From contig NZ_RJVK01000004.1 of assembly GCF_003752135.1 (NCBI RefSeq), forward strand, positions 62,001-126,000: a stretch of DNA of 64,000 bases, in the 5' to 3' direction. A program made the translations under genes and the position numbers. Source of the stretch: Caminibacter pacificus. GTDB lineage: Bacteria > Campylobacterota > Campylobacteria > Campylobacterales > Nautiliaceae. The first letter of the stretch is position 1; each line of letters begins with the position of its first letter. Below the pieces are notes generated by a model. It was not told the DNA's origin, made no database searches, and saw only the letters and a program-made list of their open reading frames with translations. This document shows positions 4,708 to 62,280 of the stretch, one piece after another.

Positions 4708-5688
4708 CTATTCCTTAAGTAGTTTATCCCTTTGATGTTTGATTTCTTCTATAGTTTCGATTATTTCGCATTCTCTTTTTTCATATGGATTATAATAATT
4801 GCTATAAAGAATATATGCTGCTGCAAACACTTCAAGAGGAGTGAGTTTTCTTTGTCTTCTTTCATTTGTCAGTTTATCTTGCGTAATTCCCCAGCCGGCG
4901 TAAAAAGGCATACCGAAAGTCACCACTTCTTTTCCCAAAAACGCCGCTTCAAAGCCCATTTGGGATGTTTGGGTATAGACTTTGTCAAATTCTTCTAGTA
5001 GCATTACGGGGTTTGTGTTTTCAGTTATAACTTTGCAATATTTTTTTGCAAGGTCTATATCTATCGAGCTTTGTCTTTTGCCGGTTAGTACGTCCGGGTG
5101 GACTTTTACAAACACGTCCGCACCTTCATTTTCTTCAAGAGCGCTTAATATTATATCTTTTGGTTCAAATTCGTAAGCTCTACCATATACAAGGGAATTA
5201 TCCCCTGCTGTTTGGGCGATTATTAGCACTTTTTTCTTTTTGGATTTTTTTACCTTCTCAGGTAAAATTAAAGGAGAAAGGTTATATTTTGAAATTTTAT
5301 ATTTTTTAATAAGTTCTATTGCATCACGGGCGGTTTGGAGAAGCTTTTCGTTGTTTTTAAAATCATAAGTTTTTAAAATTCTCTCAATTCTTGTTTCTTT
5401 GCTGGCGTCATAATGCATTCCGGCATCATCCTCCACCACGGAAAAAGCGGGATACCCTTCAACCCCAAGGCCCACGGAGCGTATGAATCCGTCTTCCAAT
5501 AAAAGCCATTTTGGCATTTCCATGGCTTCAAGACCGCTTTTTTTGTACCCCCAGCCTAAAAAAACGGCGTTTTTATCAAAAGCAGGTACGATATGTTTAA
5601 AAAAAGGCGGTACATAAACGACAGGTTGATATTTTTTGTAGTTTTTTGCGCGTCTATTTATGAGTCTGATTGATGTGCTGTAAAACAT
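4708..5688 (-). CDS. single-module KpsC-like capsule beta-Kdo transferase
   Basis: Resembles one module of KpsC, the enzyme that adds Kdo residues to the lipid anchor of group 2 capsules. Seen here: LLLEDGFIRSVGLG (near residue 62), AQTAGDNSLVYGRA (near 158), VKVHPDVLTGKR (near 194) and TSQMGFEAAFLGKEVVTFG followed by PFYAGWG. These are the hallmarks of the capsule_synth/KpsC fold. E. coli KpsC is about twice as long and carries two transferase modules; this 326-residue protein has only one. AAAAGG lies 7 bases before ATG 5688, supporting this start despite a 35-base overlap with the upstream glycosyltransferase. The KpsS-like gene two genes upstream and msbA suggest work on a lipid-linked Kdo glycan. 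Which linkage it makes cannot be read from the sequence. Confidence 0.8.
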   Translation of the reverse strand: MFYSTSIRLINRRAKNYKKYQPVVYVPPFFKHIVPAFDKNAVFLGWGYKKSGLEAMEMPKWLLLEDGFIRSVGLGVEGYPAFSVVEDDAGMHYDASKETRIERILKTYDFKNNEKLLQTARDAIELIKKYKISKYNLSPLILPEKVKKSKKKKVLIIAQTAGDNSLVYGRAYEFEPKDIILSALEENEGADVFVKVHPDVLTGKRQSSIDIDLAKKYCKVITENTNPVMLLEEFDKVYTQTSQMGFEAAFLGKEVVTFGMPFYAGWGITQDKLTNERRQRKLTPLEVFAAAYILYSNYYNPYEKRECEIIETIEEIKHQRDKLLKE

Positions 5689-6523
5689 TCATTGCCTTTT
5701 CATTCGTTAAGATTCCGTATTTTTTCAGTACGTTTATTTCGTTTTGTTTGAAAACCAAGTTATTATAAAATTCTTCTTCAAGTTTTCCAACACTCAGTAA
5801 TTTCACCCATCTTTTGTAATGAGGGCCCATTTTAGCCCCTTTTTCAAGAAGCTTTTTTCTATTTTCTATATTTTTTTTGAATTGCTCGTAACTTCTTATA
5901 GGGTAGTGAAAAACTCTTATTTTTTCAAATCTTTTTATTTTATCATAATGTCTGAAATAATCCCTAAAATCAAGCAGATGAAGCGCCTTATGATTTCCGC
6001 CTCTAATCCATAAAAGTCCTTTTGGCTTTATAATGACTTTAGGAGATATTTTGGTAAGGATTATCGAGATGTTTTCGCTGCTAAGTTGAGTGTTTTTTCT
6101 ATAAAAAATAGGATTTTCGACTCTAATCTCACTCTCCCACCAATTATTTAGCCCTTCATAAAGCAAAAAATTAAATCTATCAACCGTTAAAACAGCCTTT
6201 TTTTGGTTTTTAAGGGCTTCTTTCAGGTTTGTTTCGGCATACCAAAACTCATCCGCGTCGTTTGGAATAAGCCAAGATGGATTATATTTTTTTCTTGCGA
6301 TATGAGTTAGTTTTGTCATCCATTTGGCTTGATTGTAAGTCCCTTTTTCATCAATTATAGTGATTTCGAATTCTTTTTTTAGCTCTTCCAATAATTCTCT
6401 TGTCCCGTCGGTGGAATTATTATCCATTACCACGAAACTATCGACGCCTTTTTTTGCGTGAAAGCGGATATTTTTTTCTATTATGTCTATTTCGTTTTTT
6501 ACTAAAATCGTCATCGTAAGCAT
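5654..6523 (-). CDS. glycosyltransferase, family-2-like (Glyco_tranf_2_4 type)
   Basis: A 289-residue GT-A type transferase without membrane segments. The N-terminus MTILVKNEIDIIEKNIRFHA is followed by the DNNSTDGT nucleotide-binding motif near residue 34 and by the DADEFW metal-binding (DxD) motif near residue 89. GGNHKA near residue 175 and a HYPIRSYEQF segment match the Glyco_tranf_2_4 family. The donor and acceptor are unknown. It overlaps both neighbours (13 and 35 bases) in the msbA-kps-pse operon. A clear paralogue of the same length (289 residues) is encoded at 11885-12754, in the polyol-phosphate block, so both probably act on the same or related surface glycans. Confidence 0.8.
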   Translation of the reverse strand: MLTMTILVKNEIDIIEKNIRFHAKKGVDSFVVMDNNSTDGTRELLEELKKEFEITIIDEKGTYNQAKWMTKLTHIARKKYNPSWLIPNDADEFWYAETNLKEALKNQKKAVLTVDRFNFLLYEGLNNWWESEIRVENPIFYRKNTQLSSENISIILTKISPKVIIKPKGLLWIRGGNHKALHLLDFRDYFRHYDKIKRFEKIRVFHYPIRSYEQFKKNIENRKKLLEKGAKMGPHYKRWVKLLSVGKLEEEFYNNLVFKQNEINVLKKYGILTNEKAMNVLQHINQTHK

Positions 6524-45711: not shown

Positions 45712-47079
45712 ATGAAAAACGTCATATTATGTGGAGGGAGTGGAACTAGGCTTTGGCCGTTGAGTAGGACACTTATGCCAAAGCAGTTTTTGAAATTATT
45801 TGAAGAAAAGAGTTTATTTCAAAAAACGATAGATAGAAATAGTGAATATTGTGAAAAGTGTATAATTATTTCTAATATAGAACAATATTTTATTGCTTTG
45901 GATCAACTTGAAGAGATTAATAATAAAAAATTTAATATTAAAAATACTGTGTTTTTACTTGAAGAAATTGCTAGAAACACTGCCCCGGCAATAGCATTTG
46001 CAGCACTTGAAAGTGATGAAGAAGAGATTCTTTTTGTTACACCGAGTGATCATTTGATAAAAGATGAGGATAAATATAAAGAGGCTATAGAAAAAGCAAA
46101 AGAACTTGCTGAAAAAGATTATTTAGTAACTTTCGGTATTACCCCGAGTGAACCTCATACGGGATATGGGTATATTGAAGCAAATGGGGAAGATGTAATA
46201 AAGTTTCATGAAAAACCAGATTTAAAAACGGCTCAGGAATATTTAAAAGAAGGGAATTATTACTGGAACAGCGGAATGTTTATGTTTAAAGCCGGAATTT
46301 TTTTAGATGAGCTTAAAAAACATTCTCCTGAAGTTTACGAGGAAGTATTAAAAAGCTACGAAAAAAGACAGACAATAGGTAAGAATCAGATAAGACTAAA
46401 AGAAATGCAAAATATTCCTGATAAAAGTATAGATTATGCTGTAATGGAAAAAAGTGACAAAATAAAAGTAGTTCCAAGTGAATTTGACTGGAACGACGTG
46501 GGAAGTTTTGACTCTTTAATCGAGGAGATTTCTTCACAAGAAGCAATTGAAATAGATTCAAAAAATAACTTTTACTATAAAGATAATCCTAAAAAAGTTA
46601 TATCCACTATCGGACTTGAAGATTTTATAGTAGTGGATACAAGAGATGCTTTACTTATCGCTAAAAAAGGATTGTCTCAAAAAGTAAAAGATGTTGTAAA
46701 AGTATTAAAAAGTAAAGAAAATGAAATTACTCATCATCATACTATAGTGCATAGACCATGGGGTGTTTTTGAAAATCTTATTGATGAAAACGGATATAAA
46801 ATAAAAAGAATAATTGTAAAACCAGGAAAAAGATTGTCTCTTCAAAAACATTTTCATAGAAGTGAACATTGGGTAGTGGTAAGCGGTACGGCTGAAGTAC
46901 AAGTAGGAGATAAAACTTATTTAGTAAGGCCAAATGAATCAACTTATATAAAAATGGGAGAAATACATAGGCTTTCAAATCCTGGAAAAATTCCGGTAGT
47001 ATTAATTGAAGCTCAAGTTGGTGAATACACAGGTGAAGATGACATAGTGAGAATTGAAGATGATTTTAAGAGGGTATGA
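45712..47079 (+). CDS. manC: mannose-1-phosphate guanylyltransferase / mannose-6-phosphate isomerase
   Basis: Type II enzyme of 455 residues with two parts. The N-terminal nucleotidyltransferase makes GDP-mannose: CGGSGTRLWPLSRTLMPKQF (7-26), FVTPSDHLIKDEDKY near 105, and FGITPSEPHTGYGYIE near 139. The C-terminal cupin (from about residue 340) would isomerise mannose 6-phosphate: RPWGVFE, KRIIVKPGKRLSLQKHFHRS and EHWVVVSGTAEV. ATG 45712 is chosen, with GGGAGAGAGG just before; an upstream TTG is less likely. It starts the GDP-sugar part of the cluster and overlaps gmm by 4 bases. Confidence 0.95.
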   Translation: MKNVILCGGSGTRLWPLSRTLMPKQFLKLFEEKSLFQKTIDRNSEYCEKCIIISNIEQYFIALDQLEEINNKKFNIKNTVFLLEEIARNTAPAIAFAALESDEEEILFVTPSDHLIKDEDKYKEAIEKAKELAEKDYLVTFGITPSEPHTGYGYIEANGEDVIKFHEKPDLKTAQEYLKEGNYYWNSGMFMFKAGIFLDELKKHSPEVYEEVLKSYEKRQTIGKNQIRLKEMQNIPDKSIDYAVMEKSDKIKVVPSEFDWNDVGSFDSLIEEISSQEAIEIDSKNNFYYKDNPKKVISTIGLEDFIVVDTRDALLIAKKGLSQKVKDVVKVLKSKENEITHHHTIVHRPWGVFENLIDENGYKIKRIIVKPGKRLSLQKHFHRSEHWVVVSGTAEVQVGDKTYLVRPNESTYIKMGEIHRLSNPGKIPVVLIEAQVGEYTGEDDIVRIEDDFKRV

Positions 47080-47516
47080 TGAGGGTAAGTAGTGAAATAT
47101 TTGAATGTATTGTAAAACATACACCATTAGTTTCAATAGATTTTATTATAGAAAATGATGGAAAAATTTTACTTGGAAAAAGAGTAAACGAACCTGCAAA
47201 AGGATATTGGTTTACAATAGGCGGAAGAATTTATAAAAACGAAACAATCAAAAATGCTCAAAAAAGGATTCTAAAAGAAGAGCTTAATTACGAAGACGAA
47301 TTTAATCCTGAGTTTATAGGTATATTTGAGCATTTTTATGATACGGGATTTAATGGAATAGAAACGCATTATGTCAATATTGCTTATAAACTAAAAAATA
47401 TAAACTTAATAGAACTTCCAAAAGTTCAGCATAATGAATATAAATGGTTTGGTTTAGACGAGTTACTAAATGCCAAAGATGTACACGAATACGTAAAACA
47501 ATATTTTAGGAGTTAG
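47076..47516 (+). CDS. gmm: GDP-mannose mannosyl hydrolase-like Nudix protein
   Basis: A 146-residue Nudix-fold protein of the Gmm/WcaH type that hydrolyses GDP-mannose or GDP-glucose. Starts with a segment like E. coli Gmm ([20 protein letters not shown]), then [20 protein letters not shown] and [14 protein letters not shown], the altered Nudix box of this group, which lacks one of the usual Glu residues. It overlaps manC by 4 bases and lies 1 base before gmd, as in colanic acid loci. Two adjacent ATG codons (47076, 47079) are possible starts. Confidence 0.85.
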
Positions 47517-49851: not shown

Positions 49852-51165
49852 GTGATAAACAAACTTAAGAAAAATTTTCATTATATAGAAATTTTAAAAA
49901 AAGGAAGTATAAATTTTATTTTTCAAATCATTGGGATAGGATTGGGATATCTATTTATTTTCATGCTTGCTAAATATTTTAATGCAGAAGGTGTAGGTTT
50001 ATTTTCTTTAACTTATTCTGTTCTTACTATTTTTTTATTATTTGCAAAATTTGGTTTTGATTTGGCAATTGTAAAATTTGTATCAGAATATAAAGATGAC
50101 TTTTCTAAGTTAAAGGATTTGTATATAAAAACATTGTTTTTTTTAATTCCTTTAAATCTTTTATTGATTAGTATAATGTTTTTTTTGAGCAAATATATTG
50201 CGATATATATTTTTCATAATGAAGAAATTATAAGATATTTAAAACTTTTTTCTCTTTTGCTGTTTCCAATAACTTTAAGATTTATTAATGCTAATTTTTT
50301 AAGAGGACTAAAATCAATTGCTGAATACTCTTTTATTCAAAGCATAAGTGTATATTTGTTTAGTGTAATTGTTTTATTTATCATAGTACAATTCTTTAAT
50401 TATAACATGTTAGATTTGTTTGTGGCTTATTTTTTAGGAGTTCTAATTGCTTTTTTTATTAGTTATTGGTTTTTAATAAAAAAAATAAATTTTTTTAGAA
50501 TATCAAGGGATTATTTTTTTAATTTAAAAACTCTTATAAAAGTTGCTTTTTCTATGCTTTTGGCAAATTCTTTAATGTTAGTAATCACTACATCTGATTC
50601 GATAATTCTTGGATATTTTACTTCTTCAAAAAATGTAGGTATATATAATATTGTAATTAAAATAGCTGTAGCTACATCTATATTTATGACGGCAATTATG
50701 AGTATTGTTTCATCAAAGTTAATTGAACTGAATAAAGAAAATAAACTTTCACAAACTATGCAATTTGTAAATACAATTGTTTTTTCTTTAAGTGGAATTA
50801 TAATAATATTTATTTTTATTTTTAAGGAAAAAATATTAATGCTTTTTGGTAAAGAATTTATAGCCGGAAGTGTTGCTCTTAGTTTGTTACTTTTTGGTAG
50901 GTTGATTGAGTCTATGAGTGGTACTGGTAATTATGTTTTACAAATTTTAGGATATGAAACAATTGTAAGAAATATAATGTTTATTGCAGCTTTTTTAAAT
51001 ATTGTTCTTAATTTTATATTGATTCCTATATATGGAATAAATGGTGCGGCATTTGCAAGTATGATTAGTATTGTGTTTTGGAATCTAATGTATATATTTT
51101 ACATTAAACAAAAATTAGGCTTTTGGAATTTACCTAATTTATTAAGGTTGAAAAGTGGAAAATAA
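49852..51165 (+). CDS. wzx: Wzx-type oligosaccharide flippase
   Basis: A 437-residue integral membrane protein with 12-14 hydrophobic segments, of the MOP/polysaccharide-transport family. It flips undecaprenyl-linked repeat units to the periplasm. The N-terminal GSINFIFQIIGIGLGYLFIF, KYFNAEGVGLFSLTYSVLTI and the central TTSDSIILGYFTSSKNVGIY blocks are typical of Wzx. GTG start 4 bases after fcl. It is strongly AT-rich (8 G or C in 60 bases at 50461-50520, by hand). Its 3' end overlaps the wzy-like gene by 11 bases, at a junction reading GTGGAAAATAA. Confidence 0.85.
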   Translation: MINKLKKNFHYIEILKKGSINFIFQIIGIGLGYLFIFMLAKYFNAEGVGLFSLTYSVLTIFLLFAKFGFDLAIVKFVSEYKDDFSKLKDLYIKTLFFLIPLNLLLISIMFFLSKYIAIYIFHNEEIIRYLKLFSLLLFPITLRFINANFLRGLKSIAEYSFIQSISVYLFSVIVLFIIVQFFNYNMLDLFVAYFLGVLIAFFISYWFLIKKINFFRISRDYFFNLKTLIKVAFSMLLANSLMLVITTSDSIILGYFTSSKNVGIYNIVIKIAVATSIFMTAIMSIVSSKLIELNKENKLSQTMQFVNTIVFSLSGIIIIFIFIFKEKILMLFGKEFIAGSVALSLLLFGRLIESMSGTGNYVLQILGYETIVRNIMFIAAFLNIVLNFILIPIYGINGAAFASMISIVFWNLMYIFYIKQKLGFWNLPNLLRLKSGK

Positions 51166-52414
51166 AAAAGTAAGTTTTAAAATAATGTTTCCGTTATATT
51201 TAATTTTCTTTTCACTATTGTTATTTTCCACCAGAGATTATTCACAAGTGCAATCTTCACCTATAAATATTTCTAATATAAATAGGATTATAGGTATTTT
51301 ATTAGCATTTGCTTTTGTTTTTATCTTTTTTTTAAAAAACTTAAAAATCCGAAAGCTATCATTTCTTTTTATTTTATATTTTAATTATATTTTAGTGAGT
51401 TTTATCTCAATAATTTTATTTTCAAATAATTTTTTATATTCTTTTTGGAAATTATTTGAAATTTTAGTGGTTTTTTTAATAGGAGTATATTTTTGGAGTT
51501 TAAGTTTTTACTTTGAAAAAATGGCATATATATTATATAATAGTTTTTTAATGTTTTTTAAATTATTATTAATTTCTGTAGTGTTAAGTATAGTATTTTT
51601 TCCTTCTATGGCACTAGAATCAGCTTCTTCAATTGGTAGTGCGTTAATTTCATTTAGAGTAAATGGAGTTTTTCCTGTTATTAATGCAATAAGTGTTGGT
51701 ACTATAAGTTCAATAGTTTTTTTTGATTCATTTATAAATTATATTTTTAAACTTAATTCTAAAAAGAAAAATTTATTTTGGATGATTCTTTCATTTATTT
51801 TATTAATTACTTCACAAAGTCGAACATCTTTATTAGGTCTTTTTGCTGCTTTATTTTTAGTATTTCTTTTAAGTAAAAAAATTAAATTATTGTGGAAAAT
51901 TTTTGCGCTAATTTTTGTTTTAATTATAGCAATTATCTTTAATAATATTATAGTGGAACTTTTTGTTCGGGGAAATAATGAAAATACATTAATTACAATC
52001 AGTGGTAGAACATATTGGTGGAATTATATATGGAATAAAATTCTTAATGATAATATATGGCATCAATTATTTGGTTATGGTTATGCATCAGGTGTTAGAG
52101 AATTAGCATTGATTCCTTCAAATGGATTGATGCAAACTTTTGACTCAACTTATTTTTCATCATTAGCAGCAACTGGATTTATTGGTACATTTCTTATTTT
52201 TATAATTTTTGTTTATTTAATATTAAGTTCATTAAAGAAATTAAATAAAGGTTTGGACAAAATGATGTATATAAGTAATATTAAGGTATTAGGAATCACG
52301 ATTATTTTATTTATTAAATCTTTTACTACAGATACAATCAATGTATTAACATTTTATTTACCTTTTTTGTTTTGCATAGTAATATTAGGAAAGTATAAAA
52401 ATGAAGAGTTTTAA
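51155..52414 (+). CDS. wzy: Wzy/O-antigen ligase-like polymerase
   Basis: A 419-residue protein with about 11-12 membrane segments and a large periplasmic loop (about residues 265-330) containing SGRTYWWNYIWNKIL, GYGYASGVREL and DSTYFSSLAATG. This is the layout of Wzy polymerases and WaaL ligases; SQSRTSLLGLFAALF before the loop is typical. Polymerase is preferred because wzx and chain-export genes are in the same cluster. GTG start (MENKK) overlapping wzx by 11 bases. Such proteins diverge fast, so the call rests on topology and context. Confidence 0.75.
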   Translation: MENKKVSFKIMFPLYLIFFSLLLFSTRDYSQVQSSPINISNINRIIGILLAFAFVFIFFLKNLKIRKLSFLFILYFNYILVSFISIILFSNNFLYSFWKLFEILVVFLIGVYFWSLSFYFEKMAYILYNSFLMFFKLLLISVVLSIVFFPSMALESASSIGSALISFRVNGVFPVINAISVGTISSIVFFDSFINYIFKLNSKKKNLFWMILSFILLITSQSRTSLLGLFAALFLVFLLSKKIKLLWKIFALIFVLIIAIIFNNIIVELFVRGNNENTLITISGRTYWWNYIWNKILNDNIWHQLFGYGYASGVRELALIPSNGLMQTFDSTYFSSLAATGFIGTFLIFIIFVYLILSSLKKLNKGLDKMMYISNIKVLGITIILFIKSFTTDTINVLTFYLPFLFCIVILGKYKNEEF

Positions 52415-53612
52415 AAATTTTATTATTATTAATGGATATAAAGAATTGAACAGTAAAGATTCAGATATTGATATTTTATTACGAAAATCTGATTTTAAAA
52501 GAGTTGAAAAGCTTTTAAAGGAAAATTTTAAAAATGAAAAATTAGTTCAAATATATCATCATGATTTATATGCTAAGAATTGTTTCTTATGGAATAAAGA
52601 AAAAAAAGAACTGTTAAATTTAGATATTTACGGAAGGCTTGAAAGAAGAAAAGTAGTGTTTTTTAATGAAGATGAGATTTTTGAAACTCTTAGATTTTAT
52701 AAAAAAATTCCAATATTGTCATCGGAAAAGGAATTTATTTATTATTTAATAAAAAAACTTGATAAAAATGATTTTAATGAGAAAGTTTTTAATTATTTAA
52801 AAGAGCTTTATTTTGAATCAGAAGAAAAATCTATAAAAGTAATTAAAAAATTTTTAAAAAATGAAGCGGTGAATATAATAAAAGCATTTGAAAAAAATAA
52901 TATTAATTTAATTAATAGGGAAAAAATTTTAAAGGAATTTGATAAAAATAAAAAGACTAATTTTTTTGAAAAAATTTTAAATTTTTTTAGAATAATAAAA
53001 AGAATTATAAGACCAACTGGGATTAGTATTGCATTTTTAGGACCTGATGGAAGTGGAAAATCCACTATTATTAATGAATTAAAAAAAAGGCAGTTACCTT
53101 TTAGAAGAATTGATTATTTTCATTTAAAACCTTTAAAAAGAAGAAATAATGATCTACAAATTGTGGAAGAACCTCATAAGTATCCTCCATATAGCAAAAT
53201 TAAATCGTTTGTTAAATTAGTTTATTTTGTTTACCAATACAATATAGGCTGGATAAAAAATATTTTGCCTCTAAAAATTAGATCGTCTCTTATTATTTTT
53301 GATAGATATTATGATGATATTTTGGCGGATAAAAAAAGATATAGAATTAGTTTGGGTGACTTTTGGATTAAATTTTTTAGAAATTTTATTCCAAAGCCTG
53401 ACTTATATTTTATATTGGTAACTGAGCCTGAAATTGTTTATAACAGAAAACAGGAAGTTTCTTTTGAAGAATTAAAAAACCAAGTAAAAAAATATGAACG
53501 ATTAGTAGATAATAAAAAATATATAAAAATCGATGTAAATAAAAAGCCTGAGGAAATTGTAAATGAAATAATAAATATTTTAATGGAGAAAATGAGTGAA
53601 AGATATAAATAG
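52401..53612 (+). CDS. nucleotidyltransferase-like domain fused to a thymidylate-kinase-like P-loop domain
   Basis: A 403-residue two-domain protein. Residues 1-110 resemble a minimal nucleotidyltransferase: SDIDIL (21-26) gives the DxD pair and LLNLDIYGR (Asp75) a third acid, but the usual GS motif is replaced by NGYKELN. Residues 205-400 form a thymidylate-kinase-like NTPase with Walker A GPDGSGKST (214-222), an IIFDRYYDD motif near 298 like the DRY/DRH motif of Tmk, and a LVTEPEIVYNRKQE lid-type segment. True Tmk is not expected in a polysaccharide operon, so the phosphate acceptor is probably something else. It overlaps wzy and the next kinase-like gene. Function unknown. Confidence 0.7.
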   Translation: MKSFKNFIIINGYKELNSKDSDIDILLRKSDFKRVEKLLKENFKNEKLVQIYHHDLYAKNCFLWNKEKKELLNLDIYGRLERRKVVFFNEDEIFETLRFYKKIPILSSEKEFIYYLIKKLDKNDFNEKVFNYLKELYFESEEKSIKVIKKFLKNEAVNIIKAFEKNNINLINREKILKEFDKNKKTNFFEKILNFFRIIKRIIRPTGISIAFLGPDGSGKSTIINELKKRQLPFRRIDYFHLKPLKRRNNDLQIVEEPHKYPPYSKIKSFVKLVYFVYQYNIGWIKNILPLKIRSSLIIFDRYYDDILADKKRYRISLGDFWIKFFRNFIPKPDLYFILVTEPEIVYNRKQEVSFEELKNQVKKYERLVDNKKYIKIDVNKKPEEIVNEIINILMEKMSERYK

Positions 53613-54552
53613 TTTTTTTTCAATCAATAAATATATTGTTTTACCTTCGCCGAAAAAACCAAAAGTATTTTTGGTTGTTGATAATGATTTAATTGCTGAC
53701 AATTCATTTAGGTTATATAATCCGTTTAGTAAAAAAGCTAAATTTTTGAAAAGTTCTGTATTTAAAATATTGCCTTTTATTAGGCCTTTTTTAAAAAGAA
53801 AAAAAAGGGGTGATTTTATTGAATTTTTAGAAAATGAATTTAAAAAGCCGTTGATTTCATCTGTTTATATTGCTACGGATAATAATAAAGTTGTTTTGCA
53901 GCTTCAAAATAAGGGTATTTTAGGATATGTGAAAGTTCCTTTAAATAATGAAGGAGAAAAAAATATTATAAATGAAATAAAAGCTTATGAAATTTTAAGA
54001 GAAAAAGAAATTTTAAATTATAAATTTTTTCATTTGAAATATAACCAAAAAAATTGTTTGTTTATTGAAAATATTGAAGGGCATAGCGAATTTATACCTA
54101 TTGATTTGGACTTTGAATTTTTAAAAAGACTTAAAAGAAATAAAAAATATGTCCTTAATAAACATCCGAGAATAAGAGGTCTTTTAGAAAATAGTGAAGA
54201 GTGGTTAAAAGAGGTAATTTTAAAAATTATAAATAATTCTAAAAATGAGTATGAGTTGGTGTATGAACACGGAGATTTTGCTCCTTGGAATATTAAGTTT
54301 AAAAATAATAGGTTTTATATATTTGATTTTGAATATTTTATTGAAGATGGCATAGAATTCTTTGACTTTATAAAATACTATTATCAATATCTAAAACTTC
54401 TTGAAAATAAGCAAATTGATGAAATTTATAAATTTCTAAATAAGAAATTTAAAATTCCAAAAGAGATTTTTGAGCTGTTTGTAATTAAGGAATATTTACA
54501 AGAAAGGGGAGAAATGGAATTAAAATATTTAAGGGGGCTTAGTGGAAAATAA
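53596..54552 (+). CDS. aminoglycoside-phosphotransferase-like kinase
   Basis: A 318-residue protein whose C-terminal half has the small-molecule kinase pattern: VYEHGDFAPWNIKFKNN (catalytic HGDxxxxN, near residue 222) and IFDFEYFIEDG (metal-binding DFE). The N-terminal lobe is divergent, with VYIATDNNKVVLQLQNKGIL and GYVKVPLNNEGEKNIINE, where the Lys in YVKV may bind ATP. Such kinases phosphorylate sugars, choline or antibiotics; in this context a sugar or lipid-linked glycan is likely. GTG start, overlapping the NTase/TMPK-like gene by 17 bases, so the two are probably coupled. The end overlaps the next gene by 11 bases. Confidence 0.7.
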   Translation: MKDINSFFSINKYIVLPSPKKPKVFLVVDNDLIADNSFRLYNPFSKKAKFLKSSVFKILPFIRPFLKRKKRGDFIEFLENEFKKPLISSVYIATDNNKVVLQLQNKGILGYVKVPLNNEGEKNIINEIKAYEILREKEILNYKFFHLKYNQKNCLFIENIEGHSEFIPIDLDFEFLKRLKRNKKYVLNKHPRIRGLLENSEEWLKEVILKIINNSKNEYELVYEHGDFAPWNIKFKNNRFYIFDFEYFIEDGIEFFDFIKYYYQYLKLLENKQIDEIYKFLNKKFKIPKEIFELFVIKEYLQERGEMELKYLRGLSGK

Positions 54553-55777
54553 AAATATTTTGCTTATTGCTTATGCTTGTGAACCTGATAATGGAAGTGA
54601 GCCTGAAGTTGGATGGCAAGTAGTAAATCATATTGCAAAGCAACTACCAAAGTCAAATATTTATGTAATTACAAAAGCAAACAATAAAGAAAAAATAGAG
54701 CAAAAGCCATATCCCAAAAATATAACTTTTTTATATTATGAACTTCCGAAATGGGCATCATTTTGGAAAAAAAAGCAAAGAGGTATCAGAACATATTATT
54801 ATTTGTGGATGATTGGTGCTGTTAAGTTTCTTAAAGGTAAAAATATAAGATTTGATTTAATTCATCATGTGACATTCGTAAATGATTGGCTTCCTTCTAT
54901 TTTTATTTTATTGAAAAATCAAAGAAATAAATTTATTTGGGGACCGATAGGAAGTCATGATTTTATAGATTTTAGATTTTTAAAAACAAAAAAACAAAAA
55001 ATTGTGGAATTTATAAGAAGAAGTTTGCAATTATTTTTTAGAAATTTTGATCCGTTTTTTTATATGTGTAAGAAAAAAAGCGACTGTGTAATTGGCATAA
55101 ATCAAAATGTAAAAGAGAAAATTGGATTAAAAAATAAATGTTTTATAGCTGAACCGGCAATAGGGGTTGAGAGGGAATTGGTAGAGAGTATCAAGTGTAA
55201 AGAAAAAGATGAGTTTAATATTATTTCAGTAGGGAGATTAATATATATTAAAAATTTTGAGATGAGTATAAGAGCGTTTAGTGAATTTATAAAAAGAAAT
55301 AAGTTATCAGATATTAAACTTAATATTATTGGAGATGGTTCGGATAGAAAATATTTAGAAAATTTAGCAAAAGAATTAAATATTGAAAAACAAGTGGTTT
55401 TTAAAGGAAAAATTCCTTTAAAAAAGGTTTATGAGGAGTTTTCAAAATCTTCTGTTTTTATTTTTCCGACTTTTGAAAATGCAGGTTTTGTGTTTTTGGA
55501 GGCTATGATGAATTGCTTGCCTGTTGTGGGATTGGACTATGGCGGAGCTTCTCAGTTTGTTATTTCTAAGAAAGAAAAACAATTAGTAGATATAAATCAA
55601 CCATATGAAAAAATAGTAAAAGATTTGTCATTAAGGCTTGAAGATTTTTATAAAAATGAAAATTTAAGAAAAAAAGTAGGGCAAAAAAACAGGGAAGATG
55701 TTTTAAATAATTTTACATGGGATAAAAAAGCACAAAAATTTATTGAAATTTACAAAAAGGTTTTAAATGAAAAATAA
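54542..55777 (+). CDS. glycosyltransferase family 4 protein
   Basis: A 411-residue GT-B transferase. The N-terminus IAYACEPDNGSEPEVGWQVV is typical of GT4 enzymes, VGRLIYIKNFEMSIRAF begins the C-terminal domain near residue 229, and FPTFENAGFVFLEAMMNCLP (near 312) contains the EX7E-type retaining motif. It uses a nucleotide sugar and works on the lipid-linked repeat unit in the cytoplasm. GTG start (MENKN) at the recurring GTGGAAAATAA junction. It overlaps the next glycosyltransferase gene by 11 bases. Confidence 0.88.
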   Translation: MENKNILLIAYACEPDNGSEPEVGWQVVNHIAKQLPKSNIYVITKANNKEKIEQKPYPKNITFLYYELPKWASFWKKKQRGIRTYYYLWMIGAVKFLKGKNIRFDLIHHVTFVNDWLPSIFILLKNQRNKFIWGPIGSHDFIDFRFLKTKKQKIVEFIRRSLQLFFRNFDPFFYMCKKKSDCVIGINQNVKEKIGLKNKCFIAEPAIGVERELVESIKCKEKDEFNIISVGRLIYIKNFEMSIRAFSEFIKRNKLSDIKLNIIGDGSDRKYLENLAKELNIEKQVVFKGKIPLKKVYEEFSKSSVFIFPTFENAGFVFLEAMMNCLPVVGLDYGGASQFVISKKEKQLVDINQPYEKIVKDLSLRLEDFYKNENLRKKVGQKNREDVLNNFTWDKKAQKFIEIYKKVLNEK

Positions 55778-56855
55778 GATACTTTTTATTTTACATTTAC
55801 CTCCTCCAAATCATGGAGCTTCAAAAGTTGGTGAATTTATAAAAAATTCAAAGATTAATAATGTTGCAAAATGTGAATTTATCCCGATAAAATCATCTGA
55901 AAACATTGGAGAAATAGGGAAATTTAATTTCAAAAAAATCTATTATATGGCTGAGCTTTATTTTAAGACTTTAATAAATATCTTGAAGTTTAGACCAAAC
56001 AAGGTTTATTATACGGCTTCGATGGGGAAAATTGCTTTTTTTAGAGATTATTTAGTTACATCTCTAATAAGAATTTATCAAGAAATAAATCCAAGTGTAG
56101 AAGTATATTATCATTATCACACAAAAGGTCTTGATAGATTAAAAAATAATAAGTTGACAAAATTTTTATTAAGAAGATTTTTGAAAAACAGTAATTTAAT
56201 TTTACTTAGTCCTTTATTAAAAAATGAATTTGAAGAGTTTGAATATAAAGAAGTTTATTATTTACCAAACGGGGTGGAAAATAATTTAAGTGAAGAAGAA
56301 TTTGAAAATATTTTGGAAAATAGATTTAATAGTGAAAAAATTCAAGTTTTATATCTTAATCATTTAATTGATATGAAGGGATATATGGAAACACTTTTTT
56401 TGGCAAAAGAGTTTCGAGATGTAATTTTTAACTTTGCTGGAAAGTTTGGTACTAAAGATGATGAAAATTATTTTTATGATTTTTTGAAAAAAAATAATAT
56501 GGAAAACGTAATATATCATGGGTTTGTGATTGGAGAAAAGAAAGAGGAGCTTTTAAAGAAATCACATGCTCTTTGTTATATAAGTAAAAATGATGCTTTT
56601 CCTTTGACATTACTTGAAGCTTTTTCTTATGGTATTCCAGTTTTTACTACAAATGAAGGTTCAATTTCTTATATTGTTGATGAAAAAAGCGGGATGATAG
56701 TTAATAGTTTGGATGAAGAAAATTTAAAAAATAAATTCAGAGAATTTTTAGATAAATATATAAATAAAGAAACTTCACAATATTGTAGGAAAAGATATTT
56801 AGAAAACTTTACATTGGAAAAATTTGAAAAAAATTTAATAAGGATACTTGGATGA
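55767..56855 (+). CDS. glycosyltransferase family 4 protein
   Basis: A 362-residue GT-B transferase. The N-terminal LHLPPPNHGASKVGEFI loop is of GT4 type, the C-terminal domain starts near residue 190 (IQVLYLNHLIDMKGYMETLF), and the donor site reads SKNDAFPLTLLEAFSYGIPV near residue 272, with the two Glu/Asp of the retaining motif. It is coupled to both neighbours by overlaps of 11 and 4 bases. Sugar specificity unknown. Confidence 0.85.
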   Translation: MKNKILFILHLPPPNHGASKVGEFIKNSKINNVAKCEFIPIKSSENIGEIGKFNFKKIYYMAELYFKTLINILKFRPNKVYYTASMGKIAFFRDYLVTSLIRIYQEINPSVEVYYHYHTKGLDRLKNNKLTKFLLRRFLKNSNLILLSPLLKNEFEEFEYKEVYYLPNGVENNLSEEEFENILENRFNSEKIQVLYLNHLIDMKGYMETLFLAKEFRDVIFNFAGKFGTKDDENYFYDFLKKNNMENVIYHGFVIGEKKEELLKKSHALCYISKNDAFPLTLLEAFSYGIPVFTTNEGSISYIVDEKSGMIVNSLDEENLKNKFREFLDKYINKETSQYCRKRYLENFTLEKFEKNLIRILG

Positions 56856-57577
56856 AATTAATGGGGTATGAAGTTTATGATAAAACTCTGGATAAGTTAA
56901 ATTTGGATATTAAAAAATTGAATAGATTTATTATAAATACTATTAATCCACACTCTTATGTGGTAGCAAAAGATGATGAGTTATTTCAAAAAGCTTTAAA
57001 AAGAAGTGATGTATTAGTGCCTGATGGCAGTGGAATTGTACTTGCGGCTAAATTTATTAATGGAAAAAGAATACAAAAAATAGCAGGAGCGGATGTTCAT
57101 AAATTTTTGCTTGAAAAAGCCAACAAAGAAAGTATTAAGGTTTTTTATATGGGTTCAAGCCAAAAAACACTTGATAAAATAAAAGAAAAATTAAAAAAAG
57201 AATATCCAAATATACAAGCCGGTTTTTATTCTCCTCCTTTTAAACCAGAGTTTGATGAAGAAGATAACAAAAAAATAATTGAAGCAATAAACAATTTTAA
57301 CCCTGATATTTTATTTGTCGGTATGACGGCTCCAAAACAAGAAAAATGGCTTTATACACATAAAGAAAAAATTAATTTTAAAGTGGCTTCATGTATTGGA
57401 GCTGTATTTGATTTTTATGCCGGGAATGTAAAGAGACCTCCTGAATATATTATAAATTTGCATTTGGAGTGGTTATTTAGATTTATACAAGAGCCAAAAA
57501 GACTTTGGAGAAGGAATTTTATTTCTACTCCTTTGTTTTTGTGGGATATGATTAAATATAAATTTAAAAAATCATAA
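56852..57577 (+). CDS. WecG/TagA/CpsF-family glycosyltransferase
   Basis: A 241-residue transferase of family GT26 that adds the second sugar (ManNAc or ManNAcA type) to an undecaprenyl-diphosphate-linked sugar at the membrane. VAKDDELFQKALKRSDVLVPDGSGIVLAAK near residues 38-67, QKIAGADVHKFLLEKA near 76, MGSSQKTLDKIKEKL and the diagnostic FVGMTAPKQEKWLY near 152. C-terminal GAVFDFYAGNVKRPPEY also fits. It is last in the manC-to-wecG unit and converges on the priming enzyme with 6 overlapping bases. A TagA role fits a polyol-phosphate linker as well. Confidence 0.9.
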   Translation: MKLMGYEVYDKTLDKLNLDIKKLNRFIINTINPHSYVVAKDDELFQKALKRSDVLVPDGSGIVLAAKFINGKRIQKIAGADVHKFLLEKANKESIKVFYMGSSQKTLDKIKEKLKKEYPNIQAGFYSPPFKPEFDEEDNKKIIEAINNFNPDILFVGMTAPKQEKWLYTHKEKINFKVASCIGAVFDFYAGNVKRPPEYIINLHLEWLFRFIQEPKRLWRRNFISTPLFLWDMIKYKFKKS

Positions 57578-58453
57578 CCCCTTTCTCCCAAGCATTACCA
57601 AAATAGTTTTAATAATAGTTTTTATTTCAAGAGCTAAATTCCAGTGTTTTATGTAGTAAAAATCGTACATTAGTTTTTGTCTTGTATCTTCGATATTTCT
57701 GCCGTAAGGATAATTCACCTGAGCCCATCCTGTAATTCCGGGAGCCACTTTATGTCTTTCGTGATAAAACGGGAACGTTTTTTCGTATTCTTTTACGAGT
57801 TCGTCCCATTCAGCTCTTGGTCCTATCATATGCATTTCGCCTTTGAATACGTTGATTAGCTGAGGTAGTTCGTCGATGCGCGTTTTTCTCATGAATGCAC
57901 CCCAAGGAAAGATTCTCGGGTCGTTATCTTGTGTGTAATGACTAAAAAACTCAACATCCGTTCTCATTGAGCGGAACTTGTAACATTTAAATGGCTTGCC
58001 GTCTTTTCCTATTCTGTATTGAGTAAAAAATATTGGTCCGTCCGGGGATTCTTTTTTTATTCTAAATGCCGAATATGCCATAATAGGAAATGCCAAAATA
58101 AAAAGAGTTCCGCCTGTCAAAAAATCTATGATTCTTTTTTGTAAATATTGAAATTTTGTGTATGGTTTCATAACGGGAAAGTATTTTTCACTTTTGAAAG
58201 GTACGTAGTATTTTTGAAATTCTTTTTCTAAATATTCTTCAATAGTTATGACATTGGGATGATCTATTTGAGATAATATTTTTTGAGTAAATTGATAAGG
58301 AGTATTTAAAATTATTGTTTCATCAGGATTTTGTTTTATTATCTCTAAAACCTCTTCTTCACTGTAAAAAATCTGTTTTTTTAATCTTTCTTTTTTTTCG
58401 ATTATATTTTTTTCGTGTTCTAAAAAGCAGTATTTATTACCTATTACTATCAT
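57572..58453 (-). CDS. undecaprenyl-phosphate sugar phosphotransferase (priming enzyme)
   Basis: A bacterial sugar transferase of 293 residues, which loads the first sugar phosphate onto undecaprenyl phosphate. Residues 1-90 are a soluble N-terminal part; a single hydrophobic segment lies near 108-130 (LTGGTLFILAFPIMAYS), followed by the catalytic domain: YRIGKDGKPFKCYKFRSMRT near 147, RKTRIDELPQLINVFKGEMH near 186 and VAPGITGWAQVNYPYGR near 235. It is the monotopic type without the multi-spanning N-terminus of WbaP. It is transcribed against the rest of the cluster, from the gap it shares with wza. Composition returns to the host style here. Confidence 0.9.
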   Translation of the reverse strand: MIVIGNKYCFLEHEKNIIEKKERLKKQIFYSEEEVLEIIKQNPDETIILNTPYQFTQKILSQIDHPNVITIEEYLEKEFQKYYVPFKSEKYFPVMKPYTKFQYLQKRIIDFLTGGTLFILAFPIMAYSAFRIKKESPDGPIFFTQYRIGKDGKPFKCYKFRSMRTDVEFFSHYTQDNDPRIFPWGAFMRKTRIDELPQLINVFKGEMHMIGPRAEWDELVKEYEKTFPFYHERHKVAPGITGWAQVNYPYGRNIEDTRQKLMYDFYYIKHWNLALEIKTIIKTILVMLGRKGL

Positions 58454-58535: not shown

Positions 58536-59279
58536 ATGAAAAAATATTTTTTATTTGTAATTGGGACTATTTTATTTTTAGGTTGTAGTGCGAAAAAAGA
58601 ATATCTTCTTTTTCAAGATGTCAATAAAACCACCAAGCAACCTCAAAAACCAATAAAAAAATCGACTACAAAATATATTTATGAATATAAAATTTTGCCT
58701 GGCGATAGATTAAGTATTACAGTCTTTAATCATCCGGAACTTAGTACCGATAATAAAACCGATTTGAGTGGAATTAATGTTTTTCCTGACGGTACTATTA
58801 ATTTACCTCTTGTAGGAAATGTAAAAGTTGCAGGTTTGACAGAAGAGCAAGCTACGAAAAAGCTCGAAAAATTATATTCCGAATATCTTAAACATCCTTA
58901 TATAAAACTCGAAGTTTTAACTAAAAAAGTATATGTTTTAGGAGAAGTAAAACAGCCGGGAGTTGTGCAAATCAGCGGGAATTACACTACTTTGATAGAA
59001 GCGATTTCTCAAAGAGGCGGTTTTAACGATATGGCGAGGAGAAATAATATTTTGATTATAAGCGGGGGGCTTAATAATCCTCAAATTCGTCAGATTGATT
59101 TGACTAAAATTTCTTCGTTAAACTACAAAAATCTTGTATTAAAACCGAATGATATCGTATATGTACAACCTATGAATATGAAACCGCTTGACGTTCAAAT
59201 TCAAGGAGTTAGTCCTATTGTTAGTTTTGTGAATTCAATATTATCTACATTTGTTAATGTGAAAATTTTAAGTCAATAA
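58536..59279 (+). CDS. wza: Wza-type polysaccharide export outer-membrane lipoprotein
   Basis: A 247-residue secretin-like export protein. Lipoprotein signal peptide with FLGC (Cys17). Polysaccharide-export domain: YEYKILPGDRLSITVFNHPE near residue 48, INVFPDGTINLPLVGNVKVAG near 84, then an SLBB repeat, VYVLGEVKQPGVVQISGNYT near 129, and NDIVYVQP near 206. It would form the outer-membrane channel for the polymer. E. coli Wza is longer (379 residues); this one has only one clear SLBB repeat and a weakly hydrophobic end rather than an amphipathic barrel helix. First gene of the wza-wzc-phosphatase-flippase unit. Confidence 0.9.
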   Translation: MKKYFLFVIGTILFLGCSAKKEYLLFQDVNKTTKQPQKPIKKSTTKYIYEYKILPGDRLSITVFNHPELSTDNKTDLSGINVFPDGTINLPLVGNVKVAGLTEEQATKKLEKLYSEYLKHPYIKLEVLTKKVYVLGEVKQPGVVQISGNYTTLIEAISQRGGFNDMARRNNILIISGGLNNPQIRQIDLTKISSLNYKNLVLKPNDIVYVQPMNMKPLDVQIQGVSPIVSFVNSILSTFVNVKILSQ

Positions 59280-59287
59280 GGTGAATA

Positions 59288-61564
59288 ATGAGTAGAGAAA
59301 TTCAAAATACTGAAGAGATAGATTTAAGGGAACTTTTTTCTATTCTTAGAAATAATAAACTTTTAATTTTTTTATTTTTGTTTTTGGGAGTTTTGTTTAG
59401 TGCGATTTTTGTTTATTTTGCTACACCTCAATATAAAACAAACGCTACCATAGAAGTTACTCCGGCACCTAAACAATTGAATGCGCAGGATTTAATATCT
59501 CAGGCATTAGGTATGGATAATTCTGCATCTTTAGAAACGGAGCAATATATTATTACATCACGTTCTATGATAGCAAAAACTCTTGATAAAGTGAATTTTA
59601 CTAAAAGATATTATATAACTAAAAATTTGAAAACAACCGAAATATATTATAAAAATTCTCCGTTTAAAGTCGAAATAAAAAAAGGGAAAAATTTAGTATT
59701 TAAAATTGTACCTTTAAATGATGTAACGTTTGTTTTGAAAGTAAAAAATGATAAATTGAATATTGATTTTAATAATGAATATAAATTTAATGAATGGATA
59801 AAAACTCCATATTTTGAATTAAAAGTTATAAAGTTAAAACCTCTTGACGATAGTGCTACTTATAAATTTGTATGGCTTGATAAGATTGAAACTGCAAAAA
59901 ATTTACAAAAAAAATTGTCGGCTTCTCCCGTATCAAAAAATGCTGATATTTTAAATATAATTTTTAGTGACAATATTCCGCAAAGAGCGGCAAATTTTGT
60001 AAATGAGCTTATTAATATTTATATTCAACAAAGTGTAAAATTAAAGACAGCTCAAGCAAATCAAACTTTAAAATTTATTGATAATCAATTGAAAATCATT
60101 TCAAAAAAACTTGCAGAATCCGAACTTGCTCTTGAGAATTTTAAAAAGAAAAACAAAGTTGTTGATTTAACGATAGAAGCTCAAGGAATTATTCAAAAAC
60201 TTAATGATTTGGATACGAAAATTAATGAACTTATATTAAAAGAAAACACTATTGACTTTATTGAAAAACAGATTCAGGGAAATAATGATATAAAATTAAT
60301 TTCTTCAGGACTTGTTGATGATCCGATTTTAAGTGATTTGATTACTCAGCTTCAACAGTTGATTTTGAAAAAAGAGACTCTTTTAATAGAATATACTCCT
60401 AAACATCCGGATGTAATAAAAGTAAATGATCAGATAAGAAGTCTTGTTGAGATGATTAAAAATAGAATTAACTCTATAAGAGTATCTATTCAAAATCAAA
60501 TGCAAACTCTTCTTAAAATAAAAAAAGAATATACAAAAATGCTTGAAAATCTGCCTCAAAACGAAAGAAAACTTGCAGACTTGCTTAGAACATACCAAGT
60601 AAATGAAAAAATTTATTCATATCTTCTTGAAAAAAGAGCTGCTACAGCAATAGCAAAAGCGAGTATTGTAAGTAATAATAGAGTAATTGATCCGGCACTT
60701 GTTCCACAAAAACCTTATAAACCTAAAAAAGTTTTAATTCTTGTAATAGGATTTATTTTAGGACTTATTTTAGGAATTGTAGTAGCATTAGTAAAAGAAT
60801 TTTTAAGTACTAAAATAAAATCAAAAGAAGATGTTGAAAAATTAACTGATGTACCGATTGTAGGTACCGTGCCTCATTTTAAGAAAAAAGATACCGTGTT
60901 AAAAACTCTAAATGCTCCTAAATCCGCGGTTGCAGAAGCTTTTAGAGCAATTAGAACTAATTTGAAATTCATATCCCCTGAAAAACTTCAAGTGATTGTA
61001 GTTACATCAACTATCAGTGGAGAAGGAAAAACTACAGTGGCATCAAATTTAGCAGGTATTTATTCGTTGAGTGGTAAAAAAACGCTTTTGGTTAATCTTG
61101 ATATGAGAAAACCTACTCTTCATAAAGTTTTTAATGTTGATAATAATATAGGTATCAGTAGTGTACTTGTTAATGAAAAAACAGTTGATGAAGTAATTAA
61201 AAAAACTAAATATTCTAATTTAGATATTATAACTTCCGGACCTATTCCGCCAAACCCTGGAGAACTTATTCAAAGTAGAAAAATGGATGAGGTAATAGAA
61301 GAATTGAGAGGAAAATATGATATCGTAATATTCGATACGCCGCCGGTCGGACTTGTAGTGGATGCTATGCATTTGTTGGAAAAGTCGGATGCAAATATTT
61401 ATCTTTTTAGAGCTGAGTATTCAAAAAAAGATTTTGTAAAAACACTTAATGATTTAAAACAAAAAGGCTTTAAACATCTTTCAATTGTAATAAATGATAT
61501 CAGTAAAAAACACGGAAATTATTACGGATATGGATACGGATACGGAGGGTATGTGGAAGAATGA
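59288..61564 (+). CDS. wzc: Wzc-type chain-length regulator and tyrosine autokinase
   Basis: A 758-residue BY-kinase. Wzz domain with a first membrane span near residues 27-47 and the second near 480-500; between them a long periplasmic coiled coil. The cytoplasmic kinase domain follows, with FRAIRTNLKF near 550, Walker A SGEGKTT near 577, the A' motif LLVNLDMRKPTLH near 600 and Walker B IVIFDTPPVG near 680. The C-terminus is a Tyr cluster (YYGYGYGYGGYVEE), the substrate of autophosphorylation in trans. It controls polymer length and export with Wza. The start follows wza by 8 bases; the stop codon overlaps the phosphatase gene by 4 bases. Confidence 0.95.
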   Translation: MSREIQNTEEIDLRELFSILRNNKLLIFLFLFLGVLFSAIFVYFATPQYKTNATIEVTPAPKQLNAQDLISQALGMDNSASLETEQYIITSRSMIAKTLDKVNFTKRYYITKNLKTTEIYYKNSPFKVEIKKGKNLVFKIVPLNDVTFVLKVKNDKLNIDFNNEYKFNEWIKTPYFELKVIKLKPLDDSATYKFVWLDKIETAKNLQKKLSASPVSKNADILNIIFSDNIPQRAANFVNELINIYIQQSVKLKTAQANQTLKFIDNQLKIISKKLAESELALENFKKKNKVVDLTIEAQGIIQKLNDLDTKINELILKENTIDFIEKQIQGNNDIKLISSGLVDDPILSDLITQLQQLILKKETLLIEYTPKHPDVIKVNDQIRSLVEMIKNRINSIRVSIQNQMQTLLKIKKEYTKMLENLPQNERKLADLLRTYQVNEKIYSYLLEKRAATAIAKASIVSNNRVIDPALVPQKPYKPKKVLILVIGFILGLILGIVVALVKEFLSTKIKSKEDVEKLTDVPIVGTVPHFKKKDTVLKTLNAPKSAVAEAFRAIRTNLKFISPEKLQVIVVTSTISGEGKTTVASNLAGIYSLSGKKTLLVNLDMRKPTLHKVFNVDNNIGISSVLVNEKTVDEVIKKTKYSNLDIITSGPIPPNPGELIQSRKMDEVIEELRGKYDIVIFDTPPVGLVVDAMHLLEKSDANIYLFRAEYSKKDFVKTLNDLKQKGFKHLSIVINDISKKHGNYYGYGYGYGGYVEE

Positions 61565-62280
61565 TATTTTTTTTTAAAAAAATAGAACCTTTAAAATTGA
61601 AAGTGGATATTCACTCTCATTTACTTCCTGGTATTGATGACGGAAGTAAAGAGATGAGTGAGAGTCTTGAAATAATCGAAAAATTCTTAGAATTGGGGTA
61701 TGAGAAGTTAATAATAACTCCTCATGTTATGGAAGATAGTTATAATAACTCTACCGATATTATTTTAGAAAAATATAAAAAACTACAAAAAGCCGTAAAT
61801 GAAAACGGTATGAATATTAAGCTCGAGGTTTCTGCGGAATATTATGTGGATGAGGAGTTTTTAAAAAGACTTGAAAATAACGATTTATTACCGATTGGCG
61901 GAAAATACATTCTTTTTGAGACATCTTATTACGAAAAACCTTTAAATTTGGAATTTATAATTTTTCAAATTCAATCTAAAGGGTATGTTCCTATTTTGGC
62001 TCATCCGGAAAGATATAGATATATCGAAGATATGAAGTATTATGATTTGCTAAAAGAAAAGGGTGTGCTTTTTCAGTGTAATATTAACTCTTTTGGAAAC
62101 TTTTATGGGAAAACAGCTTTTAAAAAGGCTAAATATCTTGCAAAAAATAATATGATTGACTTTTTGGGAAGTGATTGTCATTCAATGAAATATATGGATT
62201 CATTGAGTAAAGTGTTAAATGAAAGAAGTTTTATTAAATTAATCGAAAAAAATAGCATTAAAAATATAGAACTTCTATAA
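61561..62280 (+). CDS. PHP-type protein-tyrosine phosphatase (CpsB/YwqE family)
   Basis: A 239-residue metal-dependent phosphatase that removes phosphate from the Tyr cluster of the kinase. Metal motifs of the PHP fold: DIHSHLLPGIDDGSK at residues 16-30, IITPHVMEDSYNN near 58, ILAHPERYRYIED near 149 and GSDCHSMKYM near 208. This manganese-dependent type is usual in Gram-positive capsules (CpsB of Streptococcus) and replaces the low-molecular-weight phosphatase Wzb of E. coli. It overlaps wzc by ATGA, so kinase and phosphatase are made together. Confidence 0.9.
   Translation: MIFFFKKIEPLKLKVDIHSHLLPGIDDGSKEMSESLEIIEKFLELGYEKLIITPHVMEDSYNNSTDIILEKYKKLQKAVNENGMNIKLEVSAEYYVDEEFLKRLENNDLLPIGGKYILFETSYYEKPLNLEFIIFQIQSKGYVPILAHPERYRYIEDMKYYDLLKEKGVLFQCNINSFGNFYGKTAFKKAKYLAKNNMIDFLGSDCHSMKYMDSLSKVLNERSFIKLIEKNSIKNIELL

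Follow-up and report, generated by a model that had tools for sequence, protein, structure and literature searches.

The window, a 64,000-nucleotide stretch of a Caminibacter pacificus contig (NZ_RJVK01000004.1, positions 62,001 to 126,000 of the forward strand), carries a Wzx/Wzy exopolysaccharide locus, in which genes were named from their sequence and from Pfam matches of their homologues. Ahead of wzx the operon contains galE, genes for UDP-sugar dehydrogenases, manC, gmd and a fucose-synthase-like gene, and a polytopic membrane ORF for a Wzx-like flippase (49852..51165, + strand) is followed by a gene for a Wzy-like polymerase (51155..52414, +). The next two ORFs are P1 (52401..53612, +; 403 aa, ATG at 52401) and P2 (53596..54552, +; 318 aa, GTG at 53596, with a GGAGA-like ribosome site ahead of the start), which overlap by 17 bp and lie, exactly as the first-pass annotation had placed them, between wzy and two GT4 genes. 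P1 overlaps wzy by 14 bp, and P2 overlaps by 11 bp the first GT4 gene (54542..55777, +), a member of the 'ACEPxxGSEPxVGW' family (cluster 1) that we refer to as the partner GT4. Downstream are the second GT4 gene and a WecG/TagA glycosyltransferase gene (55767..57577, +), both recurrent neighbours; a priming sugar-1-phosphate transferase gene, assigned by sequence, on the opposite strand (57572..58453, −); and genes for a Wza-like export protein, a Wzc-like co-polymerase/kinase and a CpsB-like phosphatase (58536..62280, +), homologues of clusters 15 and 5. The GC content of P1 is 21% vs 31% for the window.

P1 consists of a nucleotidyltransferase (NTase) domain, a helical linker and a thymidylate-kinase-like domain (TmkL). 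Within the NTase domain (approximately residues 1-125), the D-x-D motif and the third carboxylate on a neighbouring strand that define the pol-beta-like NTase superfamily are present as D22, D24 and D75 and show 98-100% conservation across 63 aligned sequences. Residues 21-118 score 24.0 bits for the whole protein and 27.2 bits for the domain alone against NTP_transf_5 (PF14907), below the gathering cut-off of 31.2, and this match is clear in the P1 of the window alone, other members giving weak or zero Pfam matches. In a fold search with the whole P1 model, the matches were taken up by the kinase domain, and the NTase assignment stands at the sequence level.

TmkL (approximately residues 206-401) contains a Walker A motif (GPDGSGKS, 214-221), D301-R302-Y303 and R349-K350-x-E352, and residues 214-390 match Pfam Thymidylate_kin with 35.8 bits, above the cut-off of 27. 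The AF2 model of P1 (pLDDT 95.4) places TmkL in the Tmk fold, with a Z score of 18.6 to 5x7j over 173 residues (rmsd 2.9). In the alignment, the ATP-site residues, D301-R302 and the core of Walker A hardly vary or do not vary at all. TmkL shares with Tmk the fold, the Walker A and DR motifs and the LID arginine. It differs in the acceptor signature, as the SxxAYQ-type sequence of Tmk is exchanged for DxxxDxxRxR (DRYxxDxxxDxxRxR in TmkL relatives) and the SGxAY residues of Tmk structures in the PDB align with non-matching residues. In Tmk structures, the arginine of the DR motif makes contact with the acceptor phosphate, and the residues lost from TmkL bind thymine. Against the dTMP kinase equivalog TIGR00041, P1 reaches 38.3 bits, under the cut-off of 83.25. 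P1 is not the housekeeping Tmk, since the genome has its own on another contig (117.7 bits).

P2 contains HGDFAPWN followed by D-F-E, and the Lys-Glu pair, HxDxxxxN and D-x-E/D motifs characteristic of APH/choline kinases are all found (K113, E127, H225-x-D227....W231-N232 and D244-x-E246), with K113, E127, H225, D227, N232, D244 and E246 98-100% conserved among 52 sequences. Its AF2 model (pLDDT 95.5) has the APH/choline-kinase fold (Z 13.6), and by fold small-molecule kinases are nearest to it. P2 itself scores 16.5 bits against APH (PF01636), below the gathering cut-off of 23.2; 25 of 47 members match PF01636 at E<0.01. The domain architecture read in the first-pass annotation, an NTase lacking the GS motif joined to a Tmk-like P-loop kinase with Walker A and DRY motifs and followed by an HGDxxxxN kinase, is borne out: the GS motif is indeed missing, with D-x-D and the third Asp nonetheless there, TmkL is recognised by motifs, Pfam and fold, and P2 has all its catalytic residues. 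An aminoglycoside resistance gene was rejected as a reading: it would fit the fold of P2, but P2 sits with P1 in glycan operons in nearly all loci.

Scanning a single genome for each species returned 196 P1 relatives, and the 79 loci closest to the query were kept, a sample biased towards the type found in the window. These 79 span about a dozen phyla; record titles name Bacteroidota, Alpha-, Beta- and Gammaproteobacteria, Campylobacterota, Nitrospirota, Nitrospinae, Acidobacteria, Verrucomicrobia, Desulfobacterota, Cyanobacteria, Actinobacteria, Anaerolineae, Dadabacteria and Calditrichota. P2 is encoded at 69 of the 79, and at 57 of the 60 loci (95%) that are flanked by 5 kb or more on each side; it lies downstream of P1 in 55 of the 69 and is adjacent or fused to it in 51. 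Loci L081, L084 and L088 have P1 without P2. Glycan genes accompany P1 at 78 of the 79 loci, in clustered form at 75; inspection of the other four revealed a flippase-like ORF (L072), the start of a GT4 gene (L090) and a GT2 gene (L100), and L095, which is a contig end, alone has none. Plasmid loci in Leisingera, Agrobacterium, Legionella and Hymenobacter give the same picture, and the plasmid records annotate the module genes as 'hypothetical protein' and 'phosphotransferase'. Co-occurrence in surface-glycan loci had been put forward with the original observation as a check of the pair; the pair passed it strongly, with fusions as independent evidence, and the opposite outcome, a pair found chiefly away from glycan loci, was not seen. 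Viral contigs made up 2 of 464 pattern matches, and we reject a phage origin.

Within the phylum Campylobacterota P1 is sporadic, and it is absent from 59 near relatives. Among 397 genomes of the phylum, the three with the best matches to P1 are also the three with the best matches to P2, and the two lie within 4 kb of each other, in a search that scored few candidates per genome and may miss weaker copies. The divergence of P1 and P2 is correlated in a mirror-tree comparison, which lends the pair weak support because WecG from these loci behaves much alike (r 0.88 vs 0.86).

The partner GT4 also travels with the pair. A member of its family is encoded at 71 of 86 loci, and in 54 of 72 cases this gene lies within 300 bp and on the same strand, unlike the recurrent WecG and Wzc clusters, which are almost never adjacent. 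In Campylobacterota, it occurs in the three genomes with the P1/P2 pair and in one further genome (G062), where the sequence beside it is an unreadable run of N. The sugar-nucleotide genes around the module vary, with dTDP-rhamnose, GDP-fucose and UDP-uronate types represented. With the partner GT4 this frequent, the unit extends beyond the P1/P2 pair and comprises three enzymatic domains, NTase, TmkL and APH, plus a specific GT4.

Fusions and split forms tie these components to one another and to the export machinery. NTase, TmkL and APH form a single ORF in that order at L060 and L064 and in the order APH-NTase-TmkL at L032; the APH domain of P2 is fused to a GT4 of the partner family at L089, and NTase-TmkL to GT11 at L110 and to a hexapeptide acyltransferase at L081. 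In G222, a 651-aa protein joins NTase-TmkL to a YrbL-type kinase (PF10707, 126.5 bits), which looks as if one protein-kinase-like enzyme had been replaced by another. All three domains are encoded by separate genes of the same locus in G369, L049, L050 and L053, indicating that the NTase need not act directly in sequence with TmkL, and in G251 TmkL and APH are paired but the NTase is missing. Two different kinase domains are fused to the flippase, APH at L058, L066 and L071 and TmkL at the single locus L101. These Wzx fusions would assign the reaction to the lipid-linked intermediate, just before flipping, and argue against a purely soluble precursor pathway.

We propose, at about even probability, that P1 and P2 constitute a three-domain module that acts at the cytoplasmic membrane face and modifies the lipid-linked repeat unit of a Wzx/Wzy polysaccharide with a phosphate-type group. 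In such a scheme the partner GT4 would add a particular sugar, a hydroxyl of which could be phosphorylated by P2; TmkL might then take this phosphate as its acceptor or, alternatively, re-supply or recycle NMP/NDP, and the DxD...D NTase would transfer a nucleotidyl or phospho-substituent. The repeat unit would consequently bear a phosphomonoester, diphosphate or phosphodiester when flipped by Wzx. We favour this reading on the basis of the co-occurrence of P1 and P2, their glycan context, the fusions, the YrbL swap in G222, the three conserved active sites and the precedents discussed below. For the early suggestion of a modification system, the support is confined to gene association, and the two chemistries proposed with it, an activated unusual sugar or alditol and a terminal phosphate cap, are candidates.

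The main rival, which we consider possible though rather doubtful, is that the module makes a soluble nucleotide-activated donor of an unusual sugar, cyclitol or alditol, with P2 phosphorylating the compound, NTase and TmkL activating it and the GT4 transferring it. APH-fold kinases include the small-molecule kinases for choline, ethanolamine and methylthioribose, and the variability of the surrounding sugar-nucleotide genes suggests a self-contained module. Moreover, a dedicated GT4 that travels with the module is equally expected under nucleotide-activated sugar synthesis, and donor synthesis therefore keeps substantial weight. However, known sugar-1-phosphate nucleotidylyltransferases have a different fold, donor synthesis gives no reason to expect APH or TmkL fused to Wzx, and the surroundings of the module lack any additional conserved epimerase, dehydrogenase or CDP-alditol gene.

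The same fusions to Wzx and GT proteins could be taken to mean that the module is regulatory and controls export by phosphorylating or nucleotidylating assembly proteins such as Wzx, Wzy or a GT, and some NTase-fold enzymes are known to modify proteins, while BY-kinases regulate this very pathway. We consider such a role improbable, as it sits uneasily with three different active sites conserved over a dozen phyla and with the proximity of P2 to small-molecule kinases by fold, leaves the constant GT4 partner unexplained and has no defence match in PADLOC. Hitch-hiking, by which unrelated accessory genes would share variable glycan loci without joint function, agrees with a locus that is horizontally variable, AT-rich and missing in the 59 near relatives, but is already disfavoured, and to us very improbable, in view of fusions that recur independently, of the 95% co-occurrence and of the conservation at the catalytic sites. 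We also reject a toxin-antitoxin or defence pair, as PADLOC models gave zero matches to the pair at E<0.1 and the context is glycan throughout.

Modification of lipid-linked glycans by a kinase has a precedent in WbdD, the kinase-methyltransferase of E. coli O9a, a protein-kinase-like enzyme at the cytoplasmic membrane that phosphorylates the terminal mannose of a polyprenol-linked surface glycan (PMC3482155). WbdD differs in having a methyltransferase in place of NTase and TmkL, in terminating chains and in belonging to an ABC-transporter pathway rather than the Wzx/Wzy pathway found here; a domain search revealed no methyltransferase domain in P1 or P2, and a WbdD-like chain-terminating cap fits poorly to a Wzx/Wzy locus. 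LicD-type proteins of the NTase superfamily work in phosphocholine and phosphomannan pathways (PMC5681524), and LicA/LicD resembles our pair in combining an APH-fold kinase with an NTase-superfamily protein acting on glycans, P2 matching LicA (4r7b) with a Z score of 13.0. TmkL is without counterpart there, no LicD match was seen for P1, and among the recurrent neighbour clusters neither CDP-choline synthesis genes nor LicD genes were seen. A third parallel is PsmK/PsmN, a kinase and an annotated nucleotidyltransferase, in which a lasso peptide is phosphorylated and a sugar then placed on the phosphate, that is, phosphorylation followed by extension on the phosphate (PMC9266682). There the substrate is a peptide and TmkL is absent, and P1 falls under the PF14907 cut-off. 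The kinase family of PsmK also differs from that of P2. Lasso-peptide tailoring was rejected for the present locus, as ORFs of 100 aa or more between 40 and 64 kb of the window form a glycan operon that has no lasso B or C genes among them, and the recurrent neighbours elsewhere are glycan genes.

In the Actinoplanes wps-1 cluster, deletion of the kinase-like wpsI caused the same defect as deletion of the wzx-like gene, and in Actinoplanes missouriensis the loss of wpsI or of AMIS_7390 disturbs sporangia (PMC13390465). This cluster may offer an experimental handle, with WpsI and AMIS_7390 as candidate relatives of P2 and TmkL, respectively. The paper on Akkermansia cps1 lists an aminoglycoside phosphotransferase among the conserved genes flanking cps1. 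A 'thymidylate kinase' of B. pseudomallei was set aside because the text places the gene in no glycan locus (PMC4275268), and the passages considered from the paper on promonan of freshwater Sphingomonas show no such genes. The first-pass description of the pair as undescribed is consistent with our searches, which returned no account of the module in the open-access literature; one may exist behind a subscription.

Each component belongs to a known family, and we see a reasonable chance of genuinely new chemistry. In its most specific form, which we put forward tentatively and hold to be unlikely in full, bacteria of many phyla would use a protein-kinase-like enzyme, a TMP-kinase-like enzyme phosphorylating a sugar phosphate and an NTase to equip the undecaprenyl-linked repeat unit with a nucleotidyl- or pyrophosphate-linked substituent, in direct coupling to flipping by Wzx. 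If the modification reading holds, many Wzx/Wzy exopolysaccharide and capsule loci would bear a phosphate-type decoration that locus annotation has missed, and the charged group would be expected to alter metal binding, adhesion, antigenicity and phage recognition. We anticipate that the module could then serve as a marker when the structures of these glycans are predicted, and could lead to new glycan-modifying enzymes.

The unit formed in P1 by its nucleotidyltransferase (NTase) and thymidylate-kinase-like (TmkL) domains is also joined to another kinase: in the Campylobacterota genome G222 it is fused to a YrbL-PhoP_reg kinase (locus L138, 7780-9732), and a match resembling this fusion was found in G387. 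The G222 genome holds no match to P2, the APH-fold kinase whose gene overlaps that of P1; the fusion is a variant of the NTase-TmkL unit with a different kinase.

Two loci each hold a pair of P1 relatives: in Thiomicrorhabdus (L105) both are full-length; in Zobellia (L045) one is full-length and the other belongs to a separate TmkL and P2 pair. In Polaribacter sp. MSW5 (L055, 9866-11206), P1 is split into three ORFs beside intact P2 and GT4, the partner glycosyltransferase, reflecting either a decaying copy or sequencing errors. The window P1 starts (52401) about 14 residues downstream relative to most relatives; its N-terminal helix, preceding 'YxxxxG', is either absent or begins at a different codon. 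Relatives also occur on two IMG/VR viral contigs, L112 (nearly full-length, 4748-6061) and L113, which could be wrongly called viral or represent a virus carrying glycan genes.

In Beta/Gammaproteobacteria loci (L058, L062, L066, L071, L079 and L105), a common block including an export protein, the co-polymerase/kinase Wzc and a ParA/BcsQ-like ATPase, among others, lies upstream of the module, and these are possibly exosortase-type EPS loci. In the window itself, manC and gmd are separated by the gene for a Nudix protein (47076-47516), probably GDP-mannose mannosyl-hydrolase-like.

In Actinoplanes missouriensis wps-1, severe sporangium defects are reported both for the kinase-like WpsI and for its neighbour AMIS_7390, whose annotation places it in the sulfate adenylyltransferase/APS kinase family (PMC13390465). 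These two proteins may be related to P2 and TmkL.
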